In this document: piece after piece, positions 19,874-49,598 of the stretch
Position numbering within the stretch: position 1 is the stretch's first letter
How the letters are laid out: each line of letters starts with the position of its first letter
Source of the DNA: a virus
Direction: 5' to 3' (one strand)
DNA: 64,000 bases
Virus record (IMG/VR): IMGVR_UViG_3300042559_002699
Coordinates: 25,452-89,451 of that record
Notes under the pieces: model-generated
What the model saw: only the letters and a program-made list of their open reading frames with translations
Databases searched by the model: none
What the model was told of the DNA's origin: nothing
Position numbers and translations under genes: made by a program

Positions 19874-19932
19874 TTTTTTGAATTTGTATAGATTATCTTA
19901 GATAAAATTTCAGGAATAATTTCAGGAAATTA

Positions 19933-21704: not shown

Positions 21705-21769
21705 AAGATCCTATTTTTCCTTAGTAAATTACTTGATCTTTGTCCGTTGTATATTTCTGTTACTCCCAT
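21701..21769 (-). CDS. Possible 22-residue peptide upstream of GT11-like gene
   Basis: ATG at 21769, stop TGA overlapping the next ATG (ATGA). The product is short and basic (LLRKNRIL end). The 4-bp overlap is the same as for real gene pairs here, so it may be a coupled leader peptide; it could also be chance. Confidence 0.3.
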   Translation of the reverse strand: MGVTEIYNGQRSSNLLRKNRIL

Positions 21770-21776
21770 TATATTA

Positions 21777-22736: not shown

Positions 22737-22748
22737 GATTTTTTATTT

Positions 22749-24756: not shown

Positions 24757-24760
24757 ATTT

Positions 24761-25501: not shown

Positions 25502-25504
25502 AAT

Positions 25505-28522: not shown

Positions 28523-28544
28523 ATCTTATTTCGGGGGTTGTTCA

Positions 28545-29108: not shown

Positions 29109-29124
29109 TTTATTTTATATATTA

Positions 29125-29808: not shown

Positions 29809-29809
29809 C

Positions 29810-30505
29810 TTATCTTATTAACATTGGATTGACTTGAACCTTAGATTCTGGAGGAGAAGGAGGTACCATATTAGGCCAATCGAATCCATTCTGTCCCATG
29901 TGAATAAACGTTGGATAGATTCCAAATGAATTTAAAACGTATCCGGTAGCTGCGTCTTCAAATACCATGGTGGAATATTTTTCCTTTGATTGGGAAATTT
30001 TAGAGATAGATTCTTTACTTAAGTAATATCCTCCACCACCACAATAGGTACAAAGAGGAACTCTTACTGGGGTTCTATTCATCTCTGCGGATTCACATTT
30101 TCCCATGTGCCAGGTCGATACGTTTTCAGGGTTAGTTATCTGTGTAACTATTCCAAAATAATCTTTATCTCCGTGAATAGAAAGGCAAGAATAAATCTTT
30201 TCGATATCCAGTTCTATATCATCGTCTGTTTTTATCATTCCTTTAATCGAGTCGGAATAATTTTCATTCACAAAAGAAACAGCTGCTTGTGTTTTTAAGG
30301 GAAGAGATTCGTAGTTATCAGGAACTTTTAGATAGACTATTTTGTTCTCTTCGTCTACTTTATATTCCGAGTCTAGATTTAAATCTCCTATAAAATAATA
30401 GAATATAATATCACCGTTGTTTGTTTCTAGGAGATGTTTTTTTTGTTCATCCCTGTGCTTACTTCCCTTATGAGAAAGAATAGCCATAAAAAATTTATCT
30501 TTCAT
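29810..30505 (-). CDS. GT31-like galactosyltransferase
   Basis: 231 residues. MKTDDDIELD is the GT31-type DDD motif; GGGGYYLSKESISKI and FEDAATGYVL match the family's later conserved blocks (EDVxxG-like). GT31 members transfer Gal or GlcNAc in beta-1,3 linkage. Overlaps the upstream gene by 11 bp. Confidence 0.82.
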   Translation of the reverse strand: MKDKFFMAILSHKGSKHRDEQKKHLLETNNGDIIFYYFIGDLNLDSEYKVDEENKIVYLKVPDNYESLPLKTQAAVSFVNENYSDSIKGMIKTDDDIELDIEKIYSCLSIHGDKDYFGIVTQITNPENVSTWHMGKCESAEMNRTPVRVPLCTYCGGGGYYLSKESISKISQSKEKYSTMVFEDAATGYVLNSFGIYPTFIHMGQNGFDWPNMVPPSPPESKVQVNPMLIR

Positions 30506-31253
30506 TTAATGTTTCTAATCTGGTGTATTTTTCTTTTGATCTAATGTATCTTGCTACCTCTTCTTGTCTATGAACTTTAGTTGCTCCGTCCCTTGTGGGA
30601 TTAGCTACGTTATAAACATAAAGAATATCAGGAATAAATCTGCTTCTCTCTTTTGACATCTCCAACATTGGAAGCATAAATGCCTGATCCCCTGTTACGT
30701 CAAGCCATTCACCATCGGGTAATTTAAAGTCCTCTTCCTTGATTTTCAAAAACAATTCTCTTCTATAAGTTCTTAGATGAGAAGCCATCCATCTGTATTC
30801 CCTAAATAAATTTCCTTGTATTATATGATCTGGGTAAGCATAATAACTTCCAGAAACGTCGTTATAAGGATATTCTTCATATCTTCCATAGGTCATCCAG
30901 ACTTCTCCGGAATTATAGACCTCATTTAGTTTTTTTAGAACCTGGTTGTTTTTTAAACAATCATCCCCATCGACAGAAACCACTATAGAATTTTCCTTAG
31001 AAAGAAGAGTGAGCTCTAGAATATTTCGGACCTGCGAGAATATTTTATTCTCATTTCTTATAGCTCTTAATTTTCCTGGAAATTCTTTTTGTATCCTGGA
31101 GCATATCTCAAAAGTCTTATCGGTTGAAATGTCGTCTATAACGATAACTTCAAAGTTATCATAATCCTGGTTTAAACAGCTGTATAGACATCCCTCTATC
31201 CAATTCTCGTGATTAAAGGTGTTTATCGTTATGGAAAAGAAGTTGTTGCTCAT
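30495..31253 (-). CDS. Family 2 glycosyltransferase
   Basis: 252 residues from ATG 31253. FSITINTFNHENWIEGCLY, VIVIDDISTDKT and VSVDGDDCLK are classic GT2 motifs, with a later GDQAFMLPM. I chose 31253 because it overlaps the upstream stop as ATGA; a start at 31274 would add 7 residues in the middle of the preceding gene. Confidence 0.9.
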   Translation of the reverse strand: MSNNFFSITINTFNHENWIEGCLYSCLNQDYDNFEVIVIDDISTDKTFEICSRIQKEFPGKLRAIRNENKIFSQVRNILELTLLSKENSIVVSVDGDDCLKNNQVLKKLNEVYNSGEVWMTYGRYEEYPYNDVSGSYYAYPDHIIQGNLFREYRWMASHLRTYRRELFLKIKEEDFKLPDGEWLDVTGDQAFMLPMLEMSKERSRFIPDILYVYNVANPTRDGATKVHRQEEVARYIRSKEKYTRLETLNER

Positions 31254-32098
31254 ATTATTTCCCATCCCTCGCAATATATGTCACTCGTGTCTTTAGGTAA
31301 AGAAGGACCAAACCATCTGGAAGGAGCTATAACTCTCTTGTCCTTAGATCTATTTAACCAGGCACCCCACCAGCTAAAAGAAGAGTTTGCAATAATGTGA
31401 TGGTCACACATTGTCATAATTGCAAGATCCACATATGGATTGTTAGTTTCTGAAAATATAAAACTGTCTCCTTCAAATTTTTTCTTGCACCATTCGATAT
31501 CGTCAGAAAAAACTAGAAACACAGAATTTTTTAGATCGAATTTTTCAATTGCAGATTTATAATAGTCATCGGAACAAACCGGATGATGGTTTGGATATAG
31601 CGTATAATCCCCCCTTCTTACGTGAATAGAAATTACATTCTTATTTGATGATAGAGAATGAACCTTCTCTAATAGAAAATTTCTTGCTTCTTCTTCATCT
31701 TCTTTTTTAAAAGTAAAGATTTCTAGAATTTCTTCCCTATATTTTTTAAAATATTCCTCGGTTTGAAAGTATCCAGATAAATCTGTATATGGTTCCAAAG
31801 ATAGAACCTGAGGATTGAATTTAAAATCCCCCTCGTAGTAAATGTACTGAGGTTTTACCTCACTGAACGGAATTAAATATTTTGACGGGATATTGAAACA
31901 ATCTAAAAGATCGCACTTAACATTCGTCTGTAATCCGGTTTTAACGTCAATTGGTCCGCTTCCAATTTTTCTGGTGCAATTCTCAATAGGAATTCCGGCA
32001 CCAAATCCTCTTTCTTTTGCTATTCCTACTGTTGAAGCAAGCTGGAACATCTGATTTCCAAGCCTTCCCATGTAGCCGATGCTTCTAAAATAAATCAT
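31250..32098 (-). CDS. Alpha-1,2-fucosyltransferase (GT11)
   Basis: 282 residues. GRLGNQMFQLAS, the intact GDP-fucose site IHVRRGDY, and the C-terminal ANSSFSWWGAWLN. Unlike the second GT11-like gene at 20.8 kb, the HxRRGDY motif is kept, so fucosyl transfer is likely. First gene of the minus-strand glycan operon; divergent from the plus-strand GT7-like gene. Confidence 0.92.
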   Translation of the reverse strand: MIYFRSIGYMGRLGNQMFQLASTVGIAKERGFGAGIPIENCTRKIGSGPIDVKTGLQTNVKCDLLDCFNIPSKYLIPFSEVKPQYIYYEGDFKFNPQVLSLEPYTDLSGYFQTEEYFKKYREEILEIFTFKKEDEEEARNFLLEKVHSLSSNKNVISIHVRRGDYTLYPNHHPVCSDDYYKSAIEKFDLKNSVFLVFSDDIEWCKKKFEGDSFIFSETNNPYVDLAIMTMCDHHIIANSSFSWWGAWLNRSKDKRVIAPSRWFGPSLPKDTSDIYCEGWEII

Positions 32099-32175
32099 AG
32101 AATAATTTAAAATTATACCGGGGAAGAAGAATAATGTTTCGGAAACTTTAACAAAAGTATGAACTAAAATATCTG

Positions 32176-32844
32176 ATGTCTAAAAAATTATCTATCATAG
32201 TTCCATATAGGGACAGAGAAGAACATTTAAAAAAATTTGTTCCCCATATGGAGAATTCAGAATTCTTAAGGGATTTGGATTACGAGATTGTAATTGTTGA
32301 ACAGGACGATAAACCTTTCAACAGAGGAAAATTATTAAACGTCGGAGCACTTGAATCACCTTCTGCAGATTACTATTGTTTCCATGACGTTGATATGTTA
32401 CCAATAACATCGGATTATACTTATACCCCGAATCCAACCCATTTAGCAGCTGAAGCGGAGCAATTTGGATACAAACTCCCTTACCATAAGTATTTCGGAG
32501 GGGTTACCATTTTCGATAAGCATTCCTTTATCAAGGCAAATGGATATTCTAACGATTACTGGGGGTGGGGAGCAGAGGATGACGACGTTATGTTGAGATG
32601 CATTTTAAATGGGATCCCAACATCTAGGAAAAATGGAAGATATAGATCGTTAGCTCACGAAAGAAATATTGTCAAAGATTTATATGACGAGAATCTTAAA
32701 AAATATTTCTCATTTAGCTCCCCTGAAGGGCAAAAAAATGCGATGGAAAAAATAAATTCGGATGGATTAACAACTCTAAAATATGAAATCTTAGAAGAAA
32801 GGAAGATCTCAGATAAAACTAGAATCGTAAAAGTTAAAATTTAA
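32176..32844 (+). CDS. Beta-1,4-galactosyltransferase-like (GT7)
   Basis: 222 residues. LSIIVPYRDREEHL, FNRGKLLNVG, YYCFHDVDMLP, FGGVTIF and WGWGAEDDD follow the full motif order of metazoan-type B4GALT enzymes: UDP-Gal binding, DVD metal motif and acceptor loop. No signal anchor is present, so it acts in the cytosol. One of few plus-strand genes in the island. Confidence 0.93.
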   Translation: MSKKLSIIVPYRDREEHLKKFVPHMENSEFLRDLDYEIVIVEQDDKPFNRGKLLNVGALESPSADYYCFHDVDMLPITSDYTYTPNPTHLAAEAEQFGYKLPYHKYFGGVTIFDKHSFIKANGYSNDYWGWGAEDDDVMLRCILNGIPTSRKNGRYRSLAHERNIVKDLYDENLKKYFSFSSPEGQKNAMEKINSDGLTTLKYEILEERKISDKTRIVKVKI

Positions 32845-32845
32845 A

Positions 32846-32853
32846 AATATATA
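32846..32853 (+). promoter_or_regulatory. Class B promoter-like motif (AATATATA)
   Basis: AATATATA ends 19 nt before the GTG at 32873, the standard spacing. Only 2 nt after the GT7 stop. Confidence 0.4.
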
Positions 32854-32872
32854 AGGGAAATTATCCCAAAGA

Positions 32873-33430
32873 GTGATAGAAATTAAAGGAATAGATACCG
32901 GTAACAGATTAGTTATTTTTGATTTAGATGATACTATTGTCAGAACTGATGCAAAGATAAAAATTGTAGACAGAAAAACCGGGAAAATTATCAAGTCCTT
33001 AACCCCTCAGGAATTCAACACATTCGAATCTAAACCATCTAAGCACGTTCTGGATTTTGGGGATTTTCTAAACCCTGAAATTCTAAGACAGGGAAGATTT
33101 ATCCATGAGATATTTAACAAGCTCAAAAGCTACTATAAGAGAGGAATCCCTGTTGCTATTGTGACTGCTAGAAGCTCTAGCAAGCTCGTGAGGGACTTCT
33201 TTTTAGAAAATGGGATTGACATACATCCACAACTTGTAATTGCTATAAGTGATCCTCAGTATGGTTATAAAGGAACCATTGCAGATAGAAAAAAGGAAGC
33301 AATAAAAGATTTAATTGATTTAGGATTTAAGCATTTGACTTTCTTTGATGATAGCCAAGAAAATTTAACTCTTGCTAAAGAAGCAGAGGGATATAAAGGT
33401 GCTACAATTAAACTGATTAAAGTTGATTAA
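32873..33430 (+). CDS. HAD-superfamily phosphatase-like protein (GTG start)
   Basis: 185 residues. LVIFDLDDTIV is HAD motif I with the nucleophile Asp; IVTARSSSKL is motif II; TFFDDSQENL is motif IV. The cap is small. Phage homologues often belong to the end-healing or nucleotide-phosphatase groups. GTG start is supported by a class B motif 19 nt upstream. Converges on 33427..33648 (4-bp overlap of stops). Confidence 0.83.
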   Translation: MIEIKGIDTGNRLVIFDLDDTIVRTDAKIKIVDRKTGKIIKSLTPQEFNTFESKPSKHVLDFGDFLNPEILRQGRFIHEIFNKLKSYYKRGIPVAIVTARSSSKLVRDFFLENGIDIHPQLVIAISDPQYGYKGTIADRKKEAIKDLIDLGFKHLTFFDDSQENLTLAKEAEGYKGATIKLIKVD

Positions 33431-33648
33431 AGACCAGATCTAAGGTCCTCTAGAGATCTCGGGATTGTCAATCTCAGATGCTCCAGATTTTTCTCTAGTA
33501 TTTCAGGACTTACGTTTCTAGTTAAGATTTGAACAGTTTCCAATACACCAAGGGCAAATCCTAATTTTCCTTTGATGATAGCATTTTCTTTCATGAGCAT
33601 TTGCTCTCTTCTAGAAAGTTCCCCCTCCTTAATTTTTTTCTTTGGCAT
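33427..33648 (-). CDS. Small helical protein, unknown
   Basis: 73 residues. Very basic first ten residues, then helices (LSRREQMLMKENAIIKGKL, SPEILEKNLEHLRLTI). No domain recognised. It lies alone between the HAD gene and a glycosyltransferase gene. Confidence 0.6.
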   Translation of the reverse strand: MPKKKIKEGELSRREQMLMKENAIIKGKLGFALGVLETVQILTRNVSPEILEKNLEHLRLTIPRSLEDLRSGL

Positions 33649-33685
33649 ATAAAATATGTATCAAAGATCCAAATTTATTTAGAAT

Positions 33686-34441
33686 TTATTTAGAATTAAG
33701 GTAATCTTCCAATCTACGATATCTTTCATTATTAGGAAGACCGTGTACGTCCATAGGACTGTCGCACAATCTAGTGTACCACATGTGAATTGCTATGTCA
33801 GGAGAATCTTTCTCAATCCTTGGATTGGTTGACTTAAATCTGGAATCAAAGTAAGGGTAAAGATAATGAATTTTTATTTTGTTCTCCTTCATCAGCCAGC
33901 AGAAAAGATAAAAAGGTTCGCATTCAGATTCTATATTATCATGAGGCCAGATTTTATCGTGAGGATATATGAAATCATCCAAATATTCTTTCTTAAAATG
34001 AATTCCTAAAGAATTCTTCCAATTTTGTCCATCGTATTTGAAATCGATATTTTTAATATCTAAATTGACATGCTGCAAATCTTCAACCCTACCAGCCAAA
34101 AAGAAAGAGTTGAAAGCTACTGGATTGTTTCCTCTGAAATGACAATATGCTTCAGAAATAGCAGAAATCCCAATATCTTCCATTTCCATTTTTTCAAGGA
34201 GTTTAATTACTTCAGATTTATTTTCGATGAAGCAATCTTCATCGATATGGATATACCATTTTTGATTTGTTTTCTTAACCTCATTTATCCAAAGAAACCA
34301 GGACTTTGGCCATCCCCCTCTTCCGTCGACGACAATGAAGGAACTTTCAGGAAAATTTGATTTTAATATACTCTGTTGATAATTTATCCATTTAGTGGAT
34401 AAAGAAGGGGTAACAAAAACTATGTCTGAATCTTTGATCAT
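33686..34441 (-). CDS. GT-A glycosyltransferase-like protein
   Basis: 251 residues. VFVTPSLSTKWINYQQSIL begins the fold; WYIHIDEDCFIEN holds the DxD (DED) motif; a Trp/His-rich C-terminus follows (IWPHDNIESECEP). It is outlying from the main glycan operon but of the same style as the other small GTs. Family not fixed. Confidence 0.75.
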   Translation of the reverse strand: MIKDSDIVFVTPSLSTKWINYQQSILKSNFPESSFIVVDGRGGWPKSWFLWINEVKKTNQKWYIHIDEDCFIENKSEVIKLLEKMEMEDIGISAISEAYCHFRGNNPVAFNSFFLAGRVEDLQHVNLDIKNIDFKYDGQNWKNSLGIHFKKEYLDDFIYPHDKIWPHDNIESECEPFYLFCWLMKENKIKIHYLYPYFDSRFKSTNPRIEKDSPDIAIHMWYTRLCDSPMDVHGLPNNERYRRLEDYLNSK

Positions 34442-34476: not shown

Positions 34477-34776
34477 TTAAAAGAGAGATTTGACGTGTCT
34501 CAGAGCAACATCAAAAACGGAATTCTTAGGATCATTAGGCCAGTTACCAACAAAGGCTAGCATCGAGGTAGCTTTTTTCTGAACCTCTTTTTCTGGAACT
34601 ATGTTGCTCTTCTTGATTGCTGCAACCAATTCTTCTGCTAATTTCTTACCGCTCTTATAAATGTCAGAGATTTTTTTATCTTCTGGAATGTTAAGAAGTT
34701 CGTGCATTAGATTCTTTCTTGTTCTTGATTCGTTTAAAGATTCGGTGAAAGATTCATAGAGTGCTAGATTTTTCAT
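34477..34776 (-). CDS. Tagged (capsid-targeting-like) small protein
   Basis: 99 residues. N-terminal MKNLALYESFTESLNE then SR is one of the cleanest tag examples, with a predicted cut after NE. The rest is a helical domain (SGKKLAEELVAAIKKSNIV). Start overlaps the methyltransferase stop (ATGA). Confidence 0.75.
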   Translation of the reverse strand: MKNLALYESFTESLNESRTRKNLMHELLNIPEDKKISDIYKSGKKLAEELVAAIKKSNIVPEKEVQKKATSMLAFVGNWPNDPKNSVFDVALRHVKSLF

Positions 34777-35639
34777 TTTTCAAAATTTTTATTTTCTATA
34801 ATCATTTTAGCATGTGTAGTGTGCTTAATGTCTACATCGAAGTCCTTTTTGACTTCTTTTTTTAGATAGGGAAGAACAAAATTATCTTCAAAAATAATTT
34901 CATATCCCGGAGGTATTTTCTTGTATAGAGTTTCAAGAGAAAGAGGAAGATAGTTTTCTGCTACTTCTCTAGTCCAGTTATCTGTGAATTTATATTTTAG
35001 TAAAAAGTGAGCTAAGAATTTATAGCTGCTTCCAATATCATCCCACTTTTCTTCGTAAGACTTTAAGTATTTTGGATCTGCCGCAGATTTAACTTTGTCA
35101 ACATCGTCCTGGAATTCGGATGCTTCTTTTCTACTCATTTCAACAGAAGGAATCATGTCTCTGATTACTATCCATTTAAAGTCTCCACCAAATACTCTAT
35201 CCTCCCAGAATTTTTTAACTTCTTTAGGATGAGAATAAGAATAAACTTCGTGAATTACCGAAGATAATACAAGAGCTGGTTTATCATAAGATTCCAATTC
35301 AGATTGAACCTCACTCCAAGAATCGGTTAATAAAACGTCTGGTCCTAGTTTAGCTCTTGCTTTAGCAAGCATAGCTTTACTAAGATCGTATCCTATCAAT
35401 TTAACATCTGGATTTTTCTCCTTCATCTTGGAAAGGATCGTTCCGTCTGCACACCCAAAATCTACGATAACATCCGGATTTATAATATCTAAAAAGAATA
35501 ATTTATCCGGATAGGATGCTTCCATATTTCGGTTATAAACCTCTATGTTAGCAATAGGATTTGATTCTAGAGATTCGAAAATCGATCTCAAACGGTTCAA
35601 TCCGTCGGAAAATTCCTCATATAGAATTATATTTTTCAA
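34773..35639 (-). CDS. Tagged class I SAM methyltransferase (TTG start)
   Basis: 288 residues. The N-terminal tag MKNIILYEEFSDGLN precedes a SAM fold: VIVDFGCADGTIL (motif I), LIGYDLSKAML (motif II), and VLSSVIHEVYSY. Target unknown. TTG at 35639 follows the bS21 stop by 2 nt, and the protein's tag supports it. A methyltransferase with a packaging tag would be delivered into the cell at once (inference). Confidence 0.75.
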   Translation of the reverse strand: MKNIILYEEFSDGLNRLRSIFESLESNPIANIEVYNRNMEASYPDKLFFLDIINPDVIVDFGCADGTILSKMKEKNPDVKLIGYDLSKAMLAKARAKLGPDVLLTDSWSEVQSELESYDKPALVLSSVIHEVYSYSHPKEVKKFWEDRVFGGDFKWIVIRDMIPSVEMSRKEASEFQDDVDKVKSAADPKYLKSYEEKWDDIGSSYKFLAHFLLKYKFTDNWTREVAENYLPLSLETLYKKIPPGYEIIFEDNFVLPYLKKEVKKDFDVDIKHTTHAKMIIENKNFEK

Positions 35640-35846: not shown

Positions 35847-37976
35847 TTACTCTTCTGAGCCCTTTTTTGGATTTGTGATTCTTACCTTTACTGGGGGTTC
35901 GATCTCAGCATCTTTGGAAGAATCTAGGGATAGAGTAATCTTAGAACCTGATTCAACTTTCTTTTGGATAAAGAGCTCTGCAATAGTGTCTTCGATATAT
36001 TTTTGAAGAAGTCTTTTCAGAGGTCTTGCTCCAAATTTGGGGTCATATCCTCTTTCTGCTATCTTTTCTTTTAGATCCTTAGAGATGACTAATTTAAACC
36101 CTAGATCTTCAAATCTCGGAGTCATCTTTTTAATTTCAACGTCTATAATCTTAATTAGATCATCTTGAGTTAGAGAATTAAAGTTTATAATTTCATCTAT
36201 TCTGTTTAGAAATTCCGGAGAGAAAGTTTTTTCCAATTCTTTTCTGATCGTGATCTTTGATTCTTTTTCCACATTGCTCTTATCTAAAGATTTGAATCCT
36301 ACACCTCCTCCAAATTCGGCAGCCTTTCTTTGACCAACGTTAGAAGTCAAGATGATTAAACAATTTTTAAAATTAATCTTTCTTCCTAATCCATCGGTAA
36401 TCATACCCTCGTCTAGAATTTGTAATAGAGAGTTGAAAATATCCGGATGGGCCTTTTCAATCTCGTCAAATAGAACTACTGAATATGGCTTTCTTCTAAC
36501 TTTCTCTGTTAATTGACCACCATCTTCGTGTCCAACATATCCTGGAGGAGCTCCAATCAATTTGGTTGAATTGAATTTCTCCATGTACTCGGACATATCA
36601 ACTCTAATCATTGCATCGGCATCACCGAATACCATTTTAGCCAATTCCTTAGCCAATTGGGTTTTACCAACTCCGGTAGGTCCTAGAAAAACAAATGATC
36701 CGATTGGACGATTTGGGTCTTTTAAACCGATTCTATTTCTTAAAATTGCCTTTGATATTTTTTCAACTGCTTCATTTTGTCCAATAACTCTATCTCTTAA
36801 AGCTTCAGCCATTTTAGCAAGTCTTTCGTTTTCGTCCTGACTGATCTTTTGTAGAGGAATCCCAGTCATCAAAGAAACTACTTCAGCAACTTTTTCACCG
36901 TCTACGATTTTCTTCTTCTCTTTTAGCTTTTGCTCCCAGGCTTTAGTTTCCGATTCGATGCCAGCTTTAATCTTTCTTTCCAGATCTCTATATTTGGCAG
37001 CTCCTTCATAGTCCTGTTTGGTAACACACTTCTTTTTCTCCTCTGTAGTTTTCTCTAGATTCTTCTCTAAATTAACCAATGCATCAGGAACCTTAACTTG
37101 GGTTAATTGAGATCTGCTACCCGCTTCGTCTAAAGCATCTAGAGCTTTGTCTGGGAAGTTTCTGTCGGTAATGTATCTTTCTGTTAACTTAACACAATTG
37201 ATGATAGCATCGTCAGTGTATTGAACATTATGATGATCCTCGTACTTAGCCTTGATATTGTTTAGAATTATAATTGTCTCGTCTGCAGTTGGAGCTTCAA
37301 TGATAACTTTTTGAAATCTTCTTTCTAGTGCTCCGTCTTTCTCGATATACTGTCTATATTCATTTAGAGTTGTTGCTCCAACACATTGAAATTCCCCTCT
37401 TGCTAGTGCAGGTTTTACCATGTTAGAAGCATCCAAAGATCCTGATGAACCACCGGCACCAACTAGAGTGTGCAATTCATCGATGAAAATAATTACATCT
37501 GGATTTTTTCTTAGCTCATCCATAATGGACTTCATTCTCTCTTCAAACTGACCCCTGTATTTAGTTCCGGCAACAATTAGACCCATATCCAAACTAACTA
37601 CTCTCTTATTTAGTAGATTTCTAGAAACCTTTCTTTGGAAAATTCTAAGTGCTAGTCCTTCGGCAATTGCTGATTTACCAACCCCGGGTTCCCCTATTAG
37701 AACTGGATTGTTCTTTTTCCTACGACCTAGAATTTGAGAAACTCTTTCGATCTCAGAATCTCTTCCTACAATTGGATCAAGTTCTCCCTTTGCAGCTAGA
37801 GCTGTTAAATCCCTGCTAAAAGAATCTAGGGCAGGAGTGGTTGAAGAGGTTGGATTAGATTTGTAGCTTGGAACATCATCAATATCATCGTCATCGATAG
37901 GTCCCATTGAAATTTTAGGAGGAGTGTATAAGATATCTCCCAATAAGTTCTCTCCAATTATATTGTTTTCAGTCAT
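35847..37976 (-). CDS. ClpC/ClpA-like double AAA+ unfoldase without N-domain
   Basis: 709 residues. AAA1 with Walker A GEPGVGKS (95-102) and a VGAGG pore loop; a coiled-coil middle with a UVR motif (TKQDYEGAAKYRDLERKI); AAA2 with GPTGVGKT, Walker B VVLFDEIEKAHP, and a D2-small domain. The loop GGGVGFKSLD holds a VGF tripeptide at the ClpP-binding position, so it may dock on host ClpP. The usual N-terminal adaptor domain is replaced by an acidic linker. No phage clpP is in the window. Confidence 0.93.
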   Translation of the reverse strand: MTENNIIGENLLGDILYTPPKISMGPIDDDDIDDVPSYKSNPTSSTTPALDSFSRDLTALAAKGELDPIVGRDSEIERVSQILGRRKKNNPVLIGEPGVGKSAIAEGLALRIFQRKVSRNLLNKRVVSLDMGLIVAGTKYRGQFEERMKSIMDELRKNPDVIIFIDELHTLVGAGGSSGSLDASNMVKPALARGEFQCVGATTLNEYRQYIEKDGALERRFQKVIIEAPTADETIIILNNIKAKYEDHHNVQYTDDAIINCVKLTERYITDRNFPDKALDALDEAGSRSQLTQVKVPDALVNLEKNLEKTTEEKKKCVTKQDYEGAAKYRDLERKIKAGIESETKAWEQKLKEKKKIVDGEKVAEVVSLMTGIPLQKISQDENERLAKMAEALRDRVIGQNEAVEKISKAILRNRIGLKDPNRPIGSFVFLGPTGVGKTQLAKELAKMVFGDADAMIRVDMSEYMEKFNSTKLIGAPPGYVGHEDGGQLTEKVRRKPYSVVLFDEIEKAHPDIFNSLLQILDEGMITDGLGRKINFKNCLIILTSNVGQRKAAEFGGGVGFKSLDKSNVEKESKITIRKELEKTFSPEFLNRIDEIINFNSLTQDDLIKIIDVEIKKMTPRFEDLGFKLVISKDLKEKIAERGYDPKFGARPLKRLLQKYIEDTIAELFIQKKVESGSKITLSLDSSKDAEIEPPVKVRITNPKKGSEE

Positions 37977-39655: not shown

Positions 39656-40402
39656 ATGGCAAAAATTTTATCTTTCGATGAATTTCATCTAAAAAATAAC
39701 GAGGCAGACTTATTTGGTGTAACTACCTCTCCATCCGGAAACCTCCCTCCCGGGTACAGAGAAGATGATTATAGAGAAGTTGAGGATCTTAGAGGAATCA
39801 ATCCCTCCAAGCACAACTTAAAATTAACATCTACAGATTTTCTTGAGTTTGCAACATTAAAAGATCAAAAAACAGGTAAAAACTACATTTTCTATTTTGA
39901 TTCAACCTCTCCGGAGTTCGAGGAAAATTACAAGATTTGGGACGAAGATGCTCAAGAATACCAAGATCCAGATTCAATGGGAATAGAAGCTGCTGCTAAC
40001 GACGTTCCGGTGATGGAAATAGGATTTGGAACAGACGATTGGGAAAATTCAGAAAAACCATTAGTTGAACTGGATGAGGAATTAACCGATGATATGATCG
40101 AAGAATTTAATGTTTTCATCGGTCAAGGAGGAGCATCTAGAAGAGATAAAATAAAAGTCCAGGAGGAATTGAAAAAGATTTTATCAGAAATTAAATTGAC
40201 AACCGAAAGCTTAGAATTTGAGTTTCCGGAAGAAATTTTAGAATCTGAAGGAATTCATCCGGCGATTAGAGAAAAATTGTTAGCATATTTAAAAGATAAC
40301 ACTGACGCAACATATCCAGAAGCTAAGAAATTCATCAAAGAAAAAATAGCTGGATGGAATTTAACTGCAGAAGATTTCGAAGAAGCAAAAAAACTTTTAT
40401 AA
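39656..40402 (+). CDS. Tagged (capsid-targeting-like) acidic protein
   Basis: 248 residues. N-terminal MAKILSFDEFHLKNNE then AD is a clear tag. The body is acidic with a beta domain (KNYIFYFDST) and a helical C-terminus (LLAYLKDNTDATYPEAKKFI). No known domain. Led by a class B motif and two other tagged genes downstream. Confidence 0.75.
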   Translation: MAKILSFDEFHLKNNEADLFGVTTSPSGNLPPGYREDDYREVEDLRGINPSKHNLKLTSTDFLEFATLKDQKTGKNYIFYFDSTSPEFEENYKIWDEDAQEYQDPDSMGIEAAANDVPVMEIGFGTDDWENSEKPLVELDEELTDDMIEEFNVFIGQGGASRRDKIKVQEELKKILSEIKLTTESLEFEFPEEILESEGIHPAIREKLLAYLKDNTDATYPEAKKFIKEKIAGWNLTAEDFEEAKKLL

Positions 40403-40404
40403 AA

Positions 40405-40779
40405 ATGGGAATCAATATTAAAGAATATGGTGAGTTTTTGAACGAATCTATGGATCCTAAATCCGCTACAGATAATATCATTGATATAGTTACTTCTGGG
40501 ATGGGTTGGATAGATCCGAAATATGCCATAGAAATGTTTATAAATCTAACCGGTTTAGAAGAAGAAGATTTTGAAGTTGATAAAATGCTTGGATCCCTAA
40601 TGGATTTAGATCTTCTTTACTACGAGGATAAAACCGTTTCTAATCATAAAGGTAAGAAAGTGAAATTAGAAGATCCTTATTTAACCGAATATCCAGAGAG
40701 ATCTAGCGACAACGGAAAATATCCGGGAGCCATGGAATCTTTAATTTTTAAAATTAAAAAATTGGATGAGTTTCACTAA
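40405..40779 (+). CDS. Tagged (capsid-targeting-like) small protein
   Basis: 124 residues from ATG 40405, directly after the previous stop. INIKEYGEFLNE then SM is among the best tag matches. A 60-residue helical core follows. The earlier ATG at 40354 would begin inside the previous gene and miss the tag position. Confidence 0.72.
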   Translation: MGINIKEYGEFLNESMDPKSATDNIIDIVTSGMGWIDPKYAIEMFINLTGLEEEDFEVDKMLGSLMDLDLLYYEDKTVSNHKGKKVKLEDPYLTEYPERSSDNGKYPGAMESLIFKIKKLDEFH

Positions 40780-41524
40780 GTCTTTTGCTGATTTTATTTC
40801 CGAATCTGAGGGTTTTCTTTTCGAAGGAAAGTATGACAGATTAGTTGGTCAAATTTCAGCCGATGCTATGAAACTCATAAAAGATAGTAATACACCAAAT
40901 GGTGAATATGAAGGAGTAAAAATTAGGTACACCGAAAAAGACGATGTTCCAAGTTTTGAAACTCTAATAGACGACATGCAATTCTTGGACGTTGGAAACT
41001 ATTTAGATCCGGGTACAAATCTTGACGTCTTTGTTAAATTGGTTATCGTAAGGGACGAAGCTCCTACATACACCGAATCTTTTATTCTGGACGGTAATGC
41101 AGACGAGGACCCAGCAATTCTCTATATTGAACTTACTGTAAATCCTGCTACTGAACCTCAATGTTATGTAGAACTTGCACCAGAGTTGAGAAATTTAATC
41201 AGACATGAGATAGAGCATTTAACCCAGAGAGGATGGAATACTATTCCTGCTAAGGCAATGAAGAGAAATTATGCTCAGAGGATTAAAATCCAATCAAATC
41301 CAGAAAACTATTATAAGTACTATAAACTAAAAGATGAGGTTGATGCTAATCTACATGGAATCTATGCAGAGGCAAAAACTAGAAAAAGACCTTTTCAAGA
41401 AATGATCATCAAATTCTTAAATGATAGAATAGCTAAAGGAATTGTTCCTGCTAACAAGAAACAAGAAATCTACACTCTCTATAAGAATAGAGCTAAAAAG
41501 ATTGGTGGTTTACCAGATCTTTAA
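40766..41524 (+). CDS. Tagged protein with HExxH metalloprotease-like motif
   Basis: 252 residues. Tag MSFTKSFADFISE then SE. Around residue 147, RNLIRHEIEHLTQRGW has the HExxH zinc signature in a helix after a beta domain. It may be a small metalloprotease released after packaging. The third zinc ligand is not identified. Overlaps the previous gene by 14 bp. Confidence 0.75.
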   Translation: MSFTKSFADFISESEGFLFEGKYDRLVGQISADAMKLIKDSNTPNGEYEGVKIRYTEKDDVPSFETLIDDMQFLDVGNYLDPGTNLDVFVKLVIVRDEAPTYTESFILDGNADEDPAILYIELTVNPATEPQCYVELAPELRNLIRHEIEHLTQRGWNTIPAKAMKRNYAQRIKIQSNPENYYKYYKLKDEVDANLHGIYAEAKTRKRPFQEMIIKFLNDRIAKGIVPANKKQEIYTLYKNRAKKIGGLPDL

Positions 41525-42612: not shown

Positions 42613-43005
42613 TTAGTCTTCGTCTTCTTCGTCTTCGTCTTCAGTTTCAACTTCTACCTCGTCTGGTGAAACTTGGATTTCCATCCCCATTTCTTCGTGA
42701 CCTTCTTCGTGGTCTTCCCCGTGTTCTTCCCCTTCATGTCCCATTTCAATAGAGTTAGATAAGAAGTGATAAACCTCCTCAACGTCATCTACTGATGTAG
42801 CAATGTGATCTAAAGCCCATCCGTGACCGTCTGCAAGAATACCATCGACTTTAACAGGATCTAATTCAATCAATTCTTCAATTGCATTTTTAAGCGTGTG
42901 AAGATTTTGAAAGAACATGTAGTTCTGCATTTCTCCGTGTCCTTCGTGGATTTCTTGGGATGGAACTTCGGAATTAAAGTCCTCAAAAAATTTAATGTTT
43001 TTCAT
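42613..43005 (-). CDS. Tagged (capsid-targeting-like) acidic protein
   Basis: 130 residues. Tag MKNIKFFEDFNSEVPSQE. A helical middle follows (NLHTLKNAIEELIELDPVK), then a Glu/Asp/His-rich tail ending in an EDEDEEDED run. Very acidic, as some DNA-mimic or packing proteins are. Class B motif 20 nt upstream, shared divergently with the MoxR gene. Confidence 0.75.
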   Translation of the reverse strand: MKNIKFFEDFNSEVPSQEIHEGHGEMQNYMFFQNLHTLKNAIEELIELDPVKVDGILADGHGWALDHIATSVDDVEEVYHFLSNSIEMGHEGEEHGEDHEEGHEEMGMEIQVSPDEVEVETEDEDEEDED

Positions 43006-43025
43006 AATTCGTTTTTGTTTGTTGA

Positions 43026-43033
43026 TATATATC
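43026..43033 (-). promoter_or_regulatory. Class B promoter-like motif (GATATATA), divergent region
   Basis: Minus-strand GATATATA 20 nt before ATG 43005. The core is palindromic (GATATATATC), so it could also serve the plus-strand MoxR gene, but there the spacing is longer (36 nt). Confidence 0.5.
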
Positions 43034-43067: not shown

Positions 43068-44621
43068 ATGGGAAAAAGAGTATTTAGCTTCGATGATTAT
43101 GTAAACAACAGAAGCACAACAAACGAATCAAGATTTGGAGATTTTCTCTCTAAAGCCGGTGGATGGATAGCTAGAATCGCAAAGGCTATCAAAGATGGTA
43201 TTATCAAAATGATTCCTGCAGGTCCAAAAAAAGGAACACCTTCAGTTACTTATTTTGACCCAGCAAACGGAAATATAGTTTCTCAGATTAATAATCTATA
43301 TAAAGGAACAGAATTTGCAAAGATGAATCCTGTCAATGAGTCTTTAATATCTGACCTAGATGAAGCTCAAGTTCCTCTGGAATATACAGGAGAAGATCAA
43401 ACAGTTAGAAACGTGGACGCTACTGAACTTAAGAGCATGTTAGGTAAACTTTACAGATCTAAACAAAGAGGAGGTAGAGCAAAACCTATCTTCATCTACG
43501 GAGCTCCAGGTATAGGAAAAACCCAAATCGTTGGTCAAGCAGCTCAAGCAGCCGGAGTTCCTATGCTTAACTTAGACTTGCAATTTATGTCACCGGAAGA
43601 CTTTTTAGGAATACCTAAAGTTGTTGATATTGAAGAACCTAAATATGGAGAAGAAGGAAGATTAATTTCTGCAGGTAAAGGAATAACAAGATCAAATCCT
43701 CCTATCGTTTTACCTACGGACAATGGACCAGAAGGTAAAGGTGGATTTATATTCATGGACGAGATGAACAGAGCAAACAAATATATTTTGAATGCTATCA
43801 TGCAGTTCGTTCAAATGGGTAGAGTTGGAACTTATCAATTACCTGATAAATGGGTTATCGTAGCAGCTGGTAACAGACCAGAAGACGTTAGCGGATCTGG
43901 AGAAGTTGCAGAATTTGACTTTGCTATGGCAGACAGATTCAATATCGTTAACTTTGTTCCTGACGTTGAATCTTGGTCTAAATGGGCTAAATCAAAACCA
44001 GGGGATTTCGAACCAGAAATTGTTGGATTCGTAGAAAGAAATCCAGAATTATTCCACTACTTAGATACAGAAAAAGCAACTCTTAAATTCCCAACCCCTA
44101 GATCTTGGACAGATGCAGCAGCATCTCTTAAGGATGAAATGGAAGACGAGGGAGCTACAAATTGGAGAGACCTACCAACAGATACGATCTACAACATCTA
44201 CTCAGATGCTATCGGTCCATCAGCGGCAGGTAAATTAAAAGCTTATCTTGATGTTATTAGAAGAATTTCAGATAGAGATTTGGAAGATATTGTTAAGAAT
44301 CCAGAAAAAGCTAAACCACTTTCAAAAGGAGCAGATTTCTCTTCAGTAGCTTATGGAGTATTTGAAATGGCTTTAAGAAAAGCTGAAGAAATGTCAGGAG
44401 GAAAAGCAACAGATCAGGATCTATTCAATATCATGAAATACTACCAAGGTTTAAGCAATCTTGAAATCCTATCATGGGTTTATGCTAGAATCAAAGAAAA
44501 ATATCCTGAATTTGGAGTAAACGAAGAAACACTAAAAATTAAAGATACACCGGAAGGAAAGCTTAGAATTGAAGCAGCAATGATGGTAAAAGGTGGAATG
44601 AAAGATAAAGGTTTAGTATAA
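43068..44621 (+). CDS. Tagged MoxR-type AAA+ ATPase
   Basis: 517 residues. Tag VFSFDDYVNNRSTTNE then SR. AAA+ core: Walker A GAPGIGKT (145-152), Walker B FIFMDEMNRAN, sensor 1 VIVAAGNRPED and an arginine-finger region (MADRF). MoxR ATPases remodel protein complexes with VWA partners. Here the partners follow directly (44632, 45659). A packaged unfoldase of this type would be unusual. Confidence 0.88.
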   Translation: MGKRVFSFDDYVNNRSTTNESRFGDFLSKAGGWIARIAKAIKDGIIKMIPAGPKKGTPSVTYFDPANGNIVSQINNLYKGTEFAKMNPVNESLISDLDEAQVPLEYTGEDQTVRNVDATELKSMLGKLYRSKQRGGRAKPIFIYGAPGIGKTQIVGQAAQAAGVPMLNLDLQFMSPEDFLGIPKVVDIEEPKYGEEGRLISAGKGITRSNPPIVLPTDNGPEGKGGFIFMDEMNRANKYILNAIMQFVQMGRVGTYQLPDKWVIVAAGNRPEDVSGSGEVAEFDFAMADRFNIVNFVPDVESWSKWAKSKPGDFEPEIVGFVERNPELFHYLDTEKATLKFPTPRSWTDAAASLKDEMEDEGATNWRDLPTDTIYNIYSDAIGPSAAGKLKAYLDVIRRISDRDLEDIVKNPEKAKPLSKGADFSSVAYGVFEMALRKAEEMSGGKATDQDLFNIMKYYQGLSNLEILSWVYARIKEKYPEFGVNEETLKIKDTPEGKLRIEAAMMVKGGMKDKGLV

Positions 44622-44631
44622 TTTCTAGCTA

Positions 44632-45657
44632 ATGGAATTTAAGAAAATACATACCGATATCATAGACTCGTTTGCTAAGTTTCATGTTACCCTAGAATCA
44701 AACAGAAATTCTACTAAAGGAATTAAAGTAATTGAAAAATTTGGCCAATATGTGGTCGAGAAAAACAGTTACGAACTTTTTGAGGGAGATGCTGATAAAG
44801 AAAATCAAGCAAGAGTAAAAGTAAATAGAAATCTTTTATGGATCAATTCTAAGAAAGGATTCTTCGCTCAGCTACTAGCAAAATTAAACATCTACGGAAG
44901 TTCTGATCCAAGATACACAACTATGTGTACTAACGGTCTAAACATTCAATATCATCCGGATTTCGTTTTAAGCCAATCGGACGCAGCTATCAGATTTGTT
45001 TTATGCCACGAGATTCTACATTGTGTAGGTGATCACATGACCAGAAGAGGAAATAGAAATCCTTTACTTTGGAACTATGCAGCAGATTACGCAATCAATC
45101 CAATCTTAAATGAAGAAGTAGTTCCTGGACAATTCGAGTGGCCAAAACAACCAGATGGAAGCAGAATGGGATTGTTCGAAGAGAAATATGTCGGTATGAG
45201 AGCTGAAGATATTTACGATCTTCTAAAAGAAGACAGAGAACAGCAGAAAAAAGCAACTGAGGATTCTGGTGAATCCGAGGAATCTGGAACCCACGTTATT
45301 GATTCTGATGAAGATTTATCAGAACCGGATTCAGAAAATTCTGTAGTTCAGGACGTTAGAGACGATCAGGCAGAAGAAGAAAAAGAAATGGGAGAAGGAG
45401 GAGATAAACCAGGAGATAAACCGGGGGATATGCCAGGAGATAAACCAGGGGATATGCCAGGAGATAAACCAGGGGATATGCCAGGTGAAGAAGAGGGGAA
45501 GGGAAAACCGGGAGACAAACCAGGAGAAGGAGACAAACCAGGAGAAGGAGAGCAGAGCATAGTTGGTAAAAGAGTTAGAATTACGGTAGGTCCCAACGCA
45601 GGTAAAATAGGGGTAGTAAAAAGTGTTCTTCCTAACGGAGATATAATAGTTGAATAA
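44632..45657 (+). CDS. VWA-associated metallopeptidase-like protein (DUF2201 N-half) with KOW end
   Basis: 341 residues. RFVLCHEILHCVGDHMTRR (HExxH at 126-130) matches the N-terminal metallopeptidase-like half of DUF2201 proteins, which usually sit in front of a VWA domain. A disordered Gly-Asp-Lys-Pro/Met repeat spans about 255-305, then a KOW-like end (RVRITVGPNAGKIGVV). A weaker tag (IDSFAKFHVTLE then SN) may be present at the start. Part of the MoxR/VWA triad. Confidence 0.83.
   Translation: MEFKKIHTDIIDSFAKFHVTLESNRNSTKGIKVIEKFGQYVVEKNSYELFEGDADKENQARVKVNRNLLWINSKKGFFAQLLAKLNIYGSSDPRYTTMCTNGLNIQYHPDFVLSQSDAAIRFVLCHEILHCVGDHMTRRGNRNPLLWNYAADYAINPILNEEVVPGQFEWPKQPDGSRMGLFEEKYVGMRAEDIYDLLKEDREQQKKATEDSGESEESGTHVIDSDEDLSEPDSENSVVQDVRDDQAEEEKEMGEGGDKPGDKPGDMPGDKPGDMPGDKPGDMPGEEEGKGKPGDKPGEGDKPGEGEQSIVGKRVRITVGPNAGKIGVVKSVLPNGDIIVE
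45403..45490 (+). repeat. Coding tandem repeat (GDKPGDMP)
   Basis: A 24-nt unit (GGAGATAAACCAGGGGATAT...) repeats about three times inside the gene, giving the flexible Gly/Pro/Asp linker. Unit number could vary between isolates. Confidence 0.8.
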
Positions 45658-45658
45658 A

Positions 45659-46612
45659 ATGCAAGTTAAAAAAGGAGAATTCGTTATAGTAGATGTTGAC
45701 ACTGTAGAACCAGGGCAACAGAAACCTCAAGCTGGGGATAAAAAAGAAGGAACAAGTTCACCACAGGAATTAGAAAAAGCTCCTGAAGACGTGGAAACCC
45801 CTAAATTAGATCCAAATGCAAAAACAGGTCCAGGTTACGAGAGAAATCCATCACAGGGACCCAAAACATCTACCAAGTCCTATACCTCTAAGCAAGCTAT
45901 GGGATCGGGCGGAAGCAAATCAAAAGTTTCCGCGATGTGGGAAAATGCAACAAGAGCAGCTATGTCTTCTGCAGGAGCATCTCTTTCTGAAAAAGGAAGA
46001 AGACTATTGATAGATTTAAGAACAACCAAGCCAAAGATTGACTGGAAAAAAGAACTTAAAAAGTTCATGGATAGTGCCTTGAATAAATGGGAAGAAACAC
46101 TACCAAATAGAAGATTTTTAGGATCTGGTGATATTTTATACGGAAGAAAGAGAGCAGGTAAAGATACTCTTAGAACTTTAGTTCTTCCTGTAGATACCTC
46201 GGGATCTATTTCTAAGGAACAAATCAAAACCTTTATCTCTGAAGTTCTTTATCTTTCCACAAAGATGGATATAGACACAACCTATATCATCTACTGTTCA
46301 GACGATATAGATTCTATTGATATTGTTAAAAAAGGTGGTAAACCAGACTTTGGAAAGATTGCTTCTACTGGAGGTAATGCTAAAGGATTTATTCCACCGT
46401 TTGCTTGGATTCAGAAGCAGAAAATTAATCCATCTGTAGTAATTTACTTGACAGATTCATTTGCCGAATATCCTGATAAATCCTCCTATGGAATTAACAA
46501 TTACGTAAAGAGAGTTTTCTGGTTTATTTGCGAAAAAGGAAAGAATTTCAACGTACCTCCATTTGGTAAATACATTCACGTTCCGATGGACAGCAAAGGA
46601 AACTTTGTTTAA
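45659..46612 (+). CDS. VWA-domain protein (DUF2201 C-half)
   Basis: 317 residues from ATG 45659, directly after the previous stop. After a 130-residue basic/disordered part comes a VWA fold: LVLPVDTSGSISKEQIK with a DxSxS MIDAS, TYIIYCSDDI and SVVIYLTDSFAEYP. The VWA would bind partner or target through a metal ion. The TTG at 45650 would be an overlapping start and is less likely. Confidence 0.83.
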   Translation: MQVKKGEFVIVDVDTVEPGQQKPQAGDKKEGTSSPQELEKAPEDVETPKLDPNAKTGPGYERNPSQGPKTSTKSYTSKQAMGSGGSKSKVSAMWENATRAAMSSAGASLSEKGRRLLIDLRTTKPKIDWKKELKKFMDSALNKWEETLPNRRFLGSGDILYGRKRAGKDTLRTLVLPVDTSGSISKEQIKTFISEVLYLSTKMDIDTTYIIYCSDDIDSIDIVKKGGKPDFGKIASTGGNAKGFIPPFAWIQKQKINPSVVIYLTDSFAEYPDKSSYGINNYVKRVFWFICEKGKNFNVPPFGKYIHVPMDSKGNFV

Positions 46613-46949: not shown

Positions 46950-47480
46950 TTACTTGTTCTTATTACCCATTTTAGATTCGTATACTAAACGATTTATTGT
47001 TTTCTCTATTAACCCTTTGATTACGCTGCCAACTCCATAAGACATGTCGTAGAGGTGTTTTACTTCACCCCTGAATATTTCAGGGAACTGTAGAAAAACT
47101 ACGGGGGAGTCTGTATAGATGTTATAGGTTAAATCCCAAAGAGGGTCTCCGTCTGGAGAAGATTCTGTTTCCATCGTAGCAATAACGTCCCACCCAAATT
47201 CTATCTTCCTTTCTTCTGATAATCCTACAGAGGTTAAATCAGAAATAAGTTCGTCCAGCTCATCCGGAGATTCTTTTTTGAAAGTTAGAACTAAATCCCC
47301 TTGTCCGCTTTGATCTGCAAACCCTTCACTTTCAGCTCTTGTTACCTCTGCTGAAGTAACCACATAAGGGGTTCCGAAATTCTTCCCAACTAATTGTTGT
47401 ATATGGGATTGAATTTGTTTTCCAAATCCCAATTTATCCCCGGAGGGATTAAATGCTTCGAATAGTTCTAGATACTTCAT
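46950..47480 (-). CDS. Tagged (capsid-targeting-like) protein, unknown
   Basis: 176 residues. MKYLELFEAFNPSGDK is the shortest tag form; no Glu-Ser site follows directly, so cleavage is doubtful. The rest mixes beta and helix (VTSAEVTRAESEGFADQ). No domain recognised. Confidence 0.65.
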   Translation of the reverse strand: MKYLELFEAFNPSGDKLGFGKQIQSHIQQLVGKNFGTPYVVTSAEVTRAESEGFADQSGQGDLVLTFKKESPDELDELISDLTSVGLSEERKIEFGWDVIATMETESSPDGDPLWDLTYNIYTDSPVVFLQFPEIFRGEVKHLYDMSYGVGSVIKGLIEKTINRLVYESKMGNKNK

Positions 47481-47487
47481 TTATTAA

Positions 47488-48600
47488 TTAAAGTCCAACG
47501 TCATCTAAATCTGCTAGCAATTCTGCGTCTGCTTTGGTGTCCTCTGGGATTTCAATTCCTTTTAGAATTTTTTGAACCCTGAAATCCTTCCAGATTGATT
47601 TAAGACCAACTACAAAAGCTTCCCCGTTGGTTTCAATTTCTTTCTTTAAATTCGCAGGAGATAATTTTTCTCTAATTGGATCCTTTGGAGCTTTTCCGGT
47701 TTTGATGAATTCAGGATCGGTAAACATACTTAGATATCCAACTGCCCAGCTTCCAGTTCTAGCTGCTTCTTTGTAAGCATTTGTTAAAACTGAACTTTTT
47801 AATGGGTTCTTGTTGCATCTGATTCTATAAGGAGAAATTGCAGGGCTTAGAGGAATACCCTCTAGTGTATAAAGATTATTACTGTCTACATAAATGGATA
47901 TAGAAGGACTTATTATACTAGGAAACCCTTCTAGAGAATCCAGATTACATCTATTAGCATAATAAATAGAGGTTACTTCCTTAGGTCCTCCTTTTAAGTT
48001 TCTTAGACCACTATTGTCGCTGCAATCAAAATTGTCTGATAGTTCTGGTGCTCCTTCTAAAGAGGTTAATTTATTTCTATCACATTTGTATTTACCCCCT
48101 ACTTTTACGGGACATCCAACTAGATTGGTTAATTTATTACCACTGATATTAAAATCCCCAGTTACTTCAGTAGGGAATCCCTCTGATGAATCAATGCCAC
48201 AATCGGAAACGTCGAAATAACCTTTTACCTTACCAATTTTTATCCCCATTTCTATTAATTCCCCCCATTTCTCTTTATTGTAAGATGATATTTTAAATTT
48301 CCCAATTACATCAAGTCTTTCGGTTTCGGGATTTATTGACCAAGAGGTTCCTTCATCTTCTTCACTGTAATAATCCCTTGAGATAAGGGAGTTTAGTAAT
48401 ACATTCTGTTTGTGGGTCAATTTTCCTGCCCAGGAAGGAGCTTCAAGTCCAATGTCAGTACAAACTTTAGTAAAATCTTTTCCTGTAGATTCACAATACT
48501 TCTGAAGAGAAGACAAGAAATTTCTCATTTCATCTGGATTTAAAGATTCTATCTTTTCAAGCTCTTCATAGAGAGCAAAGGGTAATAACGTTTTAGCCAT
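47488..48600 (-). CDS. Tagged leucine-rich-repeat protein
   Basis: 370 residues. N-terminal LLPFALYEELEKIE then SL fits the tag. Residues ~130-270 hold about six ~21-residue repeats of the type FDCSDN-x-LxSLEGxP, a phage/bacterial LRR variant that forms a solenoid for protein binding. A helical C-terminus follows. Class B motif 23 nt upstream. Confidence 0.8.
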   Translation of the reverse strand: MAKTLLPFALYEELEKIESLNPDEMRNFLSSLQKYCESTGKDFTKVCTDIGLEAPSWAGKLTHKQNVLLNSLISRDYYSEEDEGTSWSINPETERLDVIGKFKISSYNKEKWGELIEMGIKIGKVKGYFDVSDCGIDSSEGFPTEVTGDFNISGNKLTNLVGCPVKVGGKYKCDRNKLTSLEGAPELSDNFDCSDNSGLRNLKGGPKEVTSIYYANRCNLDSLEGFPSIISPSISIYVDSNNLYTLEGIPLSPAISPYRIRCNKNPLKSSVLTNAYKEAARTGSWAVGYLSMFTDPEFIKTGKAPKDPIREKLSPANLKKEIETNGEAFVVGLKSIWKDFRVQKILKGIEIPEDTKADAELLADLDDVGL

Positions 48601-48638: not shown

Positions 48639-49598
48639 TTAGAAAATCTTCTTGCAGATAGCTGCAGTTGATTTGGATTTTGACATCGTGTAGAAATGAA
48701 GAACTGGAGCTCCCCCTCTAATTAGATCTTTGCACTGCTCAACAGCCCATTTGATTCCAATCTCAGCAGCTTCGGAATTAGTTCCGGTTTTTCTTAGATC
48801 ATTTGATAACTCGTAAGGAAGATGAATTCCAAAGATCTTGGGTAAACCCCAAATTTGACTCTGTGCTGTGATTGGTTTTATTCCTGGGATAATTGGAACG
48901 TCTATTCCATTCTCTCTGCACTTTTGAACAAATTTCCAGTAGACTTTATTATCGAAGAACATCTGAGTAACGAAGTATTCTGACCCTAATTCCACTTTTT
49001 TCTTCATCCATTCTATATCAAATTCCATATTTGGAGATTCTGAATATTTTTCCGGGTAGCAAGCTCCGCCGTAGCAGAAATCGGACTTGTCCCCTTCAAA
49101 TCCATCGAGGAGATATTTTCCTCCATTGAGATCCCTTATCTGAGACATTAGCTCGACTGAATTTTTATTTCCTTCTGGATTTGCCAAGTAAGAAGATTCC
49201 CCTTTAATAGAATCCCCACGGAGAGCTAGAATATTATCAATTCCTAAAAAATTTAAATCTATAAGGGCATTTTCAGTTTCCTCTTTAGTAAATCCCCCAC
49301 AGATCAAATGTGGAACAGAATCTATATTGTATTTGTTTTGGATTGCCGAGCAGATAGCAACTGTTCCTGGTCTCTTCTTGGTTGAATATTTAACTAGAGA
49401 TCCATCGGGATTCTTTCTGAAAGCATATTCTTCCCTATGATAAGTAACATCTATAAATGATGGGTTAAATTCCAAAAGTCCATCTATTGCATTGTAGATT
49501 GAATTTATATCTTGTCCTTTTACAGGGGGAAGTATTTCAAAAGAGAACAGGGTCTTTTTATTCTCTTTTCCTTTCTTAATGTGCTCGGTAATTTTCAC
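48639..49598 (-). CDS. metF: Methylenetetrahydrofolate reductase (MetF)
   Basis: 319 residues, full length for bacterial MetF (about 296). FSFEILPP near the start, SFIDVTYH, VPHLICGGFT, NILALRGDS and FFDNKVYWKF follow the family order, with FAD-binding residues in the TIM barrel. It makes 5-methyl-THF for methionine/SAM. As a phage gene it is an auxiliary metabolic gene, perhaps to feed SAM to the phage methyltransferases (inference). Confidence 0.93.
   Translation of the reverse strand: MKITEHIKKGKENKKTLFSFEILPPVKGQDINSIYNAIDGLLEFNPSFIDVTYHREEYAFRKNPDGSLVKYSTKKRPGTVAICSAIQNKYNIDSVPHLICGGFTKEETENALIDLNFLGIDNILALRGDSIKGESSYLANPEGNKNSVELMSQIRDLNGGKYLLDGFEGDKSDFCYGGACYPEKYSESPNMEFDIEWMKKKVELGSEYFVTQMFFDNKVYWKFVQKCRENGIDVPIIPGIKPITAQSQIWGLPKIFGIHLPYELSNDLRKTGTNSEAAEIGIKWAVEQCKDLIRGGAPVLHFYTMSKSKSTAAICKKIF

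Follow-up and report, generated by a model that had tools for sequence, protein, structure and literature searches.

A phage MoxR ATPase system with a predicted head-targeting propeptide and a putative dock formed by a split KOW barrel

A phage-encoded MoxR-type AAA+ ATPase bears an N-terminal extension that has the appearance of a two-site head-targeting propeptide, and its two partner proteins probably join through a KOW barrel divided between them. Judging by the N-termini of this protein and its orthologues, we regard capsid targeting and processing of MoxR as likely. With moderate confidence we read the system as a tagged remodelling machine that would enter the head, be trimmed there, be retained and be ejected with the DNA; the final part, in which the machine would be ejected and act in the next host, seems only slightly favoured when taken alone. 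MoxR-VWA pairs are widespread in phages, and in tailed phages little of their function has been tested. The leader and cut site described here assign the protein a predicted place in the head interior and a mature N-terminus that can be checked. Some phages would, if this is true, deliver a protein-remodelling ATPase at infection, extending such cargo beyond inhibitors or polymerases.

The locus and its gene set

The DNA analysed, here called the window, is a 64 kb stretch of an 89,451-base virus record that is probably partial. Genes for tail sheath, tail tube and terminase, all of T4 type, lie in its left part. The source is a large phage, for which we infer a probable host among the Bacteroidota. 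Upstream of genes, neither promoters of the Bacteroidota type (TA..TTTG) nor AGGAG ribosome sites were enriched.

Three tightly packed ORFs on the plus strand (Table 1) encode MoxR, a DUF2201_N metallopeptidase half (ORF2) and a VWA half (ORF3), and form one operon. Pfam assigned AAA_5 to MoxR (1.6e-7), DUF2201_N (1.5e-24) and KOW (1.7e-6) to the metallopeptidase half, and DUF2201 (VWA-like, 3.7e-12) to the VWA half. In PHROG, MoxR matched phrog_1297 ‘ATPase’ (1.1e-54), and ORF2 and ORF3 matched opposite ends of phrog_1314 (2e-41 and 3e-32). The initial annotation had proposed a set of MoxR, a DUF2201 N-half with HEILH and a KOW end, and a VWA half; ORFs, Pfam and PHROG agree with this. The KOW end itself is present but is better described as a half-barrel, its last strands being encoded by ORF3. 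The ORF list starts the VWA half at a TTG (45650); the ATG at 45659, one base past the upstream stop, is the likelier start.

Table 1. Coordinates of features in the window and of related loci with two gene sets (a slash marks a predicted cut)
Feature	Position	Strand	Basis or remark
GATATATA promoter-like motif	43024-43031	+	upstream of MoxR
GATATATA motif, same on reverse strand	43033-43026	-	for divergent tagged gene 42613-43005
MoxR-type AAA+ ATPase, 517 aa	43068-44621	+	AAA_5, phrog_1297, fold
MoxR capsid-targeting-like leader	43068-43133	+	aromatic-x-x-aromatic core FDDY, end TTNE/S
Predicted prohead-protease site LDE/A, aa 97-100	43356-43367	+	ahead of AAA+ core
Walker A GAPGIGKT of MoxR	43500-43523	+	Walker B is FIFMDE
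DUF2201_N zincin-like metallopeptidase half, 341 aa	44632-45657	+	Pfam, PHROG
HEILH of metallopeptidase half	45007-45021	+	
First three KOW strands, end of ORF2	45562-45654	+	
VWA half (DUF2201), 317 aa	45659-46612	+	Pfam, PHROG
MIDAS start DTSGS of VWA half	46193-46207	+	
Loci with two sets	G003: L092 383-4886, L093; G008: L083 7825-11186, L090		

Membership of the MoxR family is indicated by the Walker A motif, the Walker B region FMDEMN, a MoxR-like fold and the VWA partner encoded in the adjacent ORFs (44632-46612). The NorQ hexamer was among the best-superposed Foldseek matches of the AlphaFold model (9.5e-6, TMt 0.60); by sequence, MoxR had no match in the PDB at E<=0.001. For the zincin-like HExxH N-domain, HEILH and the DUF2201_N match are joined by selecase (4qhi) among the weak Foldseek matches; a low-complexity, acidic and glycine-rich linker separates this domain from the KOW strands. 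The two domains that phrog_1314 holds on one chain are encoded by two ORFs here and at at least nine related loci. MoxR was matched by 666 of 50,697 phage records. Searches of viral contigs with single proteins returned only the window's own record, and a search with a two-sequence alignment returned 57 loci.

The phrog_1314 label ‘HNH endonuclease’ was rejected as a database misnomer, the members being metallopeptidase-VWA proteins; it recurs across databases (PBECO4 gp009, DC4_00012, PA5oct loci), and the MoxR of DC4 had been annotated as a transcription factor. Other genes of the window include a ClpB/ClpC-type AAA+ protein (phrog_4871, 35847-37976), a 640 aa SPFH/Band_7 protein (55842-57764) and a methylenetetrahydrofolate reductase (48639-49598). 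An NAPRTase/NAMPT-like gene (57840-59369) and an NADAR gene (60897-61370) may concern NAD+ handling, and an adenylosuccinate-synthetase-like gene (61367-62425) could be of PurZ type. A long island at 17892-34441, reaching leftward into the record, holds glycosyltransferase-, sugar-epimerase- and aminotransferase-like genes as judged by sequence starts only.

The N-terminal extension of MoxR

The first residues of MoxR (MGKRVFSFDDYVNNRSTTNES) resemble the short targeting leader of T4 type and are predicted to serve targeting. Alone, the window's leader would be suggestive; we judge it real because orthologues conserve it, as F..[FY]VNE[SD] (for example MGKKIYNFDDFVNESY, MSKRIKNFSDFVNESY, MPSIKKFDQYVNEDY and MQKIKNFNTFINEDY). 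Of about 12 related lineages, whose identities range over 22-64%, a single one lacks it. The window's leader ends are degenerate, TTNE in MoxR and TLES in ORF2 both missing L/I-x-E at the first site. Residues 1-29 are disordered in the AlphaFold model. More distant, leaderless MoxR proteins mostly begin some 20-50 residues ahead of the P-loop. Across three contigs, leader-type N-termini were found at 65 of 645 ORFs, against 44 of 2352 internal Met positions (p=1.4e-18).

The predicted prohead-protease site lies further along the extension, which is about 90-135 aa long in tagged sequences. We aligned 15 MoxR sequences, 14 with the extension and one without (L030). Within the extension, conservation peaks at the glutamate of position 99 (P1), which 14 of 14 extension-bearing sequences share; all of them have L or I at position 97 (P3), position 98 (P2) varies, and 12 of the 14 have A or G at position 100 (P1'), the sequences being homologous and the counts not independent events. 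The rest of the extension is poorly conserved, and the point of the pattern is that a putative protease motif is selectively retained amid an otherwise drifting region. This site, L/I-x-E, matches the L/I-X-E motif of the T4 prohead protease gp21, and ten residues of a capsid targeting sequence (CTS) suffice for packaging (PMC9026906). Predicted cleavage here would strip the whole extension. In the AlphaFold model the cut falls within a disordered linker (residues 83-101) that precedes the AAA+ core. The start codon of the untagged L030 MoxR aligns just past the predicted cut, and the metallopeptidase half of L030 has lost its leader too. A capsid tag on the ATPase had been proposed initially, and all tagged orthologues carry both a head-targeting-type propeptide and a prohead-protease-type cut site, as predicted from their sequences.

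Further capsid-tag-like N-termini occur in the window at 14882-15415, 15423-17531, 34477-35639, 39656-40779, 42613-43005, 46950-47480 and 47488-48600; most of these proteins have no assigned function, and that at 15423-17531 carries a peptidoglycan-binding domain. A tagged protein at 40766-41524 (+; MSFTKSFADFISESEG) has a zincin-like HEIEH and no Pfam match, and is a candidate for a second head-packaged metallopeptidase. From sequence alone, the leader motif offers a means of nominating candidates for capsid cargo in uncultured phages.

The partner proteins and the split KOW barrel

A leader and/or an L/I/V-x-E site stands near the N-terminus of the metallopeptidase half, or of the unsplit chain, in nearly all relatives. 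The leader of the window's ORF2 is among the weaker ones (FAKF..TLES), with a strict site, LFE/G, at 51. An aromatic leader is absent from all 12 VWA halves. These observations accord with the earlier suggestions that the second protein is ‘perhaps’ tagged, its tag-like leader being weak in the window and clear in relatives, and that the VWA partner is not (untagged in 12 of 12). The relatives G003 and G008 have two separate complete MoxR/zincin/VWA sets apiece; in all of these MoxR and the metallopeptidase half are tagged and VWA is untagged. In one set the VWA genes form a tandem duplicate. In set B of G008 the HExxH motif is lost (QGISH), which means that not every copy needs peptidase activity.

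ORF2 and ORF3 are likewise separate in L018-L023, L027-L030, G003-A and G008-B, and the break always falls in the KOW/SH3-like domain. ORF2 ends in mid-KOW, at ..PNGDIEV in the closer relatives, and ORF3 opens with the apparent last strands (M.VKKGEY.VI), a pattern read at 10 loci; in the window, the first ~12 residues of ORF3 supply the last two. When the window's two chains were joined for AlphaFold modelling, one barrel resulted, with strands 314-317, 326-332 and 338-340 from ORF2 and 343-345 and 351-353 from ORF3; joining the chains itself favours one barrel, and we take the model as support rather than proof. The pLDDT was 84-89 by block up to residue 350, and 59 in the last-strand block. 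Foldseek matched the joined model to SPT5 KOW5, to VWA domains and to a chain of the NorQD complex. No KOW domain was seen in the sequence of unsplit relatives. From sequence and model, the VWA protein probably docks on ORF2 by completing the split barrel, which would give a concrete basis to the initial annotation's idea that VWA binds its partner.

Proposed mechanism and alternatives

We propose that the three proteins would work as one protein-remodelling machine, in which a MoxR hexamer is the motor, a zincin-like subunit handles the substrate and the VWA protein acts as activator. The genes would be expressed in the same class as virion genes. MoxR and the zincin half would be made with capsid-targeting propeptides of T4 type and so be brought into the prohead core, where the phage's gp21-type protease would trim them; removal of the whole extension of ~100 residues would leave a standard MoxR. 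The untagged VWA half, translated from a start beside the zincin stop codon, would dock by completing the split KOW barrel and could therefore ride along into the head. The trimmed machine would stay in the head and probably be ejected with the DNA into a new host, where the ATPase may act early, as the initial annotation had suggested; passage of MoxR from the capsid through the tail, with reassembly, may be a step. What the analysis shows is the genes themselves, their pattern of conservation, the motif at the cut site, the promoter-like motif in common with virion genes and the protease of relatives; capsid entry, cleavage, docking, ejection and target are presumed, and no sequence evidence points to one specific remodelling target. 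In its fullest form the proposal holds that a T4-like phage lineage loads a complete machine by cleavable propeptides and ejects it with the genome, the split KOW barrel stapling the untagged VWA to the packaged peptidase; this we advance tentatively, as possible rather than probable.

A different outcome of entry, which we think rather unlikely, is that the pair serves as a virion-assembly chaperone: by way of their tags, MoxR and the peptidase would reach the prohead core and there remodel or degrade core or scaffold proteins, or aid maturation, and copies left in virions would be passengers without function in the next host. Iyer et al. 2021 (PMC7824862) drew on the parallel with ATV to propose an assembly role for this pair as it occurs in group 2.2 jumbo phages; in ATV, the MoxR protein p618 is a virion component and binds the VWA protein p892 (PMC4124505). 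The GATATATA motif also bears on this. It is found ahead of MoxR both in the window and in eight of eight relatives read, and likewise ahead of the genes for tail sheath (G000 and G008) and S77 protease, of portal-like and fibre-like genes and of many tagged ones; it lies upstream of 23 of 51 tagged ORFs versus 56 of 594 untagged ones (p=7e-10), and we infer that it is a late promoter. Being common to MoxR and structural genes, it fits production of MoxR at assembly time, and thus an assembly role too. However, a propeptide whose cleavage releases the enzyme from the core, such as the T4 internal proteins have, would be superfluous on an assembly-only factor, and untagged homologues in other jumbo phages indicate a basic function without core entry.

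Proteomic data on such homologues are at hand. The PA5oct homologue was marked as found by ESI-MS/MS in the virion and its partner was not. The virion list of phAPEC6 holds the ATPase gp265 (49.52 kDa, 6 unique peptides, 19% coverage), which corresponds to the MoxR of PBECO4, gp010 (49.50 kDa), by mass, neighbour masses and gene order; nothing in that list matches the 54.1 kDa partner at the corresponding place, and likely cytosolic proteins, thymidylate synthase and RecA, are included. In DC4 virions one peptide was reported for UFVDC4_00011, which is homologous to MoxR and has a metallopeptidase-VWA gene next after it. The CBB virion list mentions neither MoxR (CBB_216) nor the partner, which is reported in the virion of none of these four phages. 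As the MoxR homologues of the virion-analysed phages have no leader, the positive cases show that the family associates with virions in some phages and do not speak to leader function.

Much less probable is that the leader is some other localisation or translation signal common to many genes of these phages. The link between leader and capsid is predicted from sequence, and leader-type N-termini occur on diverse proteins, including LRR-type ones and others with no assigned function. Against this, the leader ends in a prohead-protease motif, a second conserved cut site lies ahead of the AAA+ core, and leaders are found among head genes. In G008 a Gp23 capsid protein, itself with a similar ..LNE/S site, lies beside a Peptidase_S77 (gp21-type) prohead protease, and this head cluster holds candidate leader-bearing proteins. 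The S77 protease is also present in G002 and in LR756500/G012; searches with the G008 queries detected neither capsid protein nor S77 protease in the window's own fragmentary 89 kb record.

It is hardly credible that an error of sequencing or a chance frameshift has broken up an ordinary single-chain protein, even with single-chain metallopeptidase-VWA forms in LR756500, L032 and L033 and an ORF3 start within one base of the ORF2 stop, because the split recurs across independent contigs, always in the KOW linker, with differing frame offsets and spacers. A programmed frameshift joining the two ORFs was rejected on the same variation among relatives.

Comparison with known systems

ATPase/peptidase-VWA systems and capsid targeting sequences are both already known kinds. 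The pair of group 2.2 jumbo phages described by Iyer et al. (PMC7824862) likewise has a phrog_1297 ATPase and a phrog_1314 partner with DUF2201_N and VWA in neighbouring genes; there, however, the partner is a single chain and no leader is described, whereas here the partner is split in its KOW domain and leaders of a cleavable type stand on MoxR and the N-half. With the T4 internal proteins and Alt (PMC9026906), the present system shares a short N-terminal leader ending in L/I-x-E, and a gp21-family protease and Gp23 capsid protein, here in relatives. It differs in that the cargo is an AAA+ motor system with a long two-site propeptide, for which packaging is only predicted. ATV p618/p892 is also a viral MoxR-VWA pair, but belongs to an archaeal virus, has a proposed role in extracellular tail growth, and lacks a metallopeptidase domain and a capsid leader. 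NorQ-NorD and RavA-ViaA similarly combine a MoxR hexamer with a VWA partner, but are cellular and have neither a peptidase half of this type nor a leader. In the open-licence literature searched we found no description of a remodelling system combined with capsid targeting, of a two-site propeptide on an AAA+ motor or of a conserved split-KOW dock, and the predicted head targeting and processing of MoxR and the putative split-KOW dock appear to be new.
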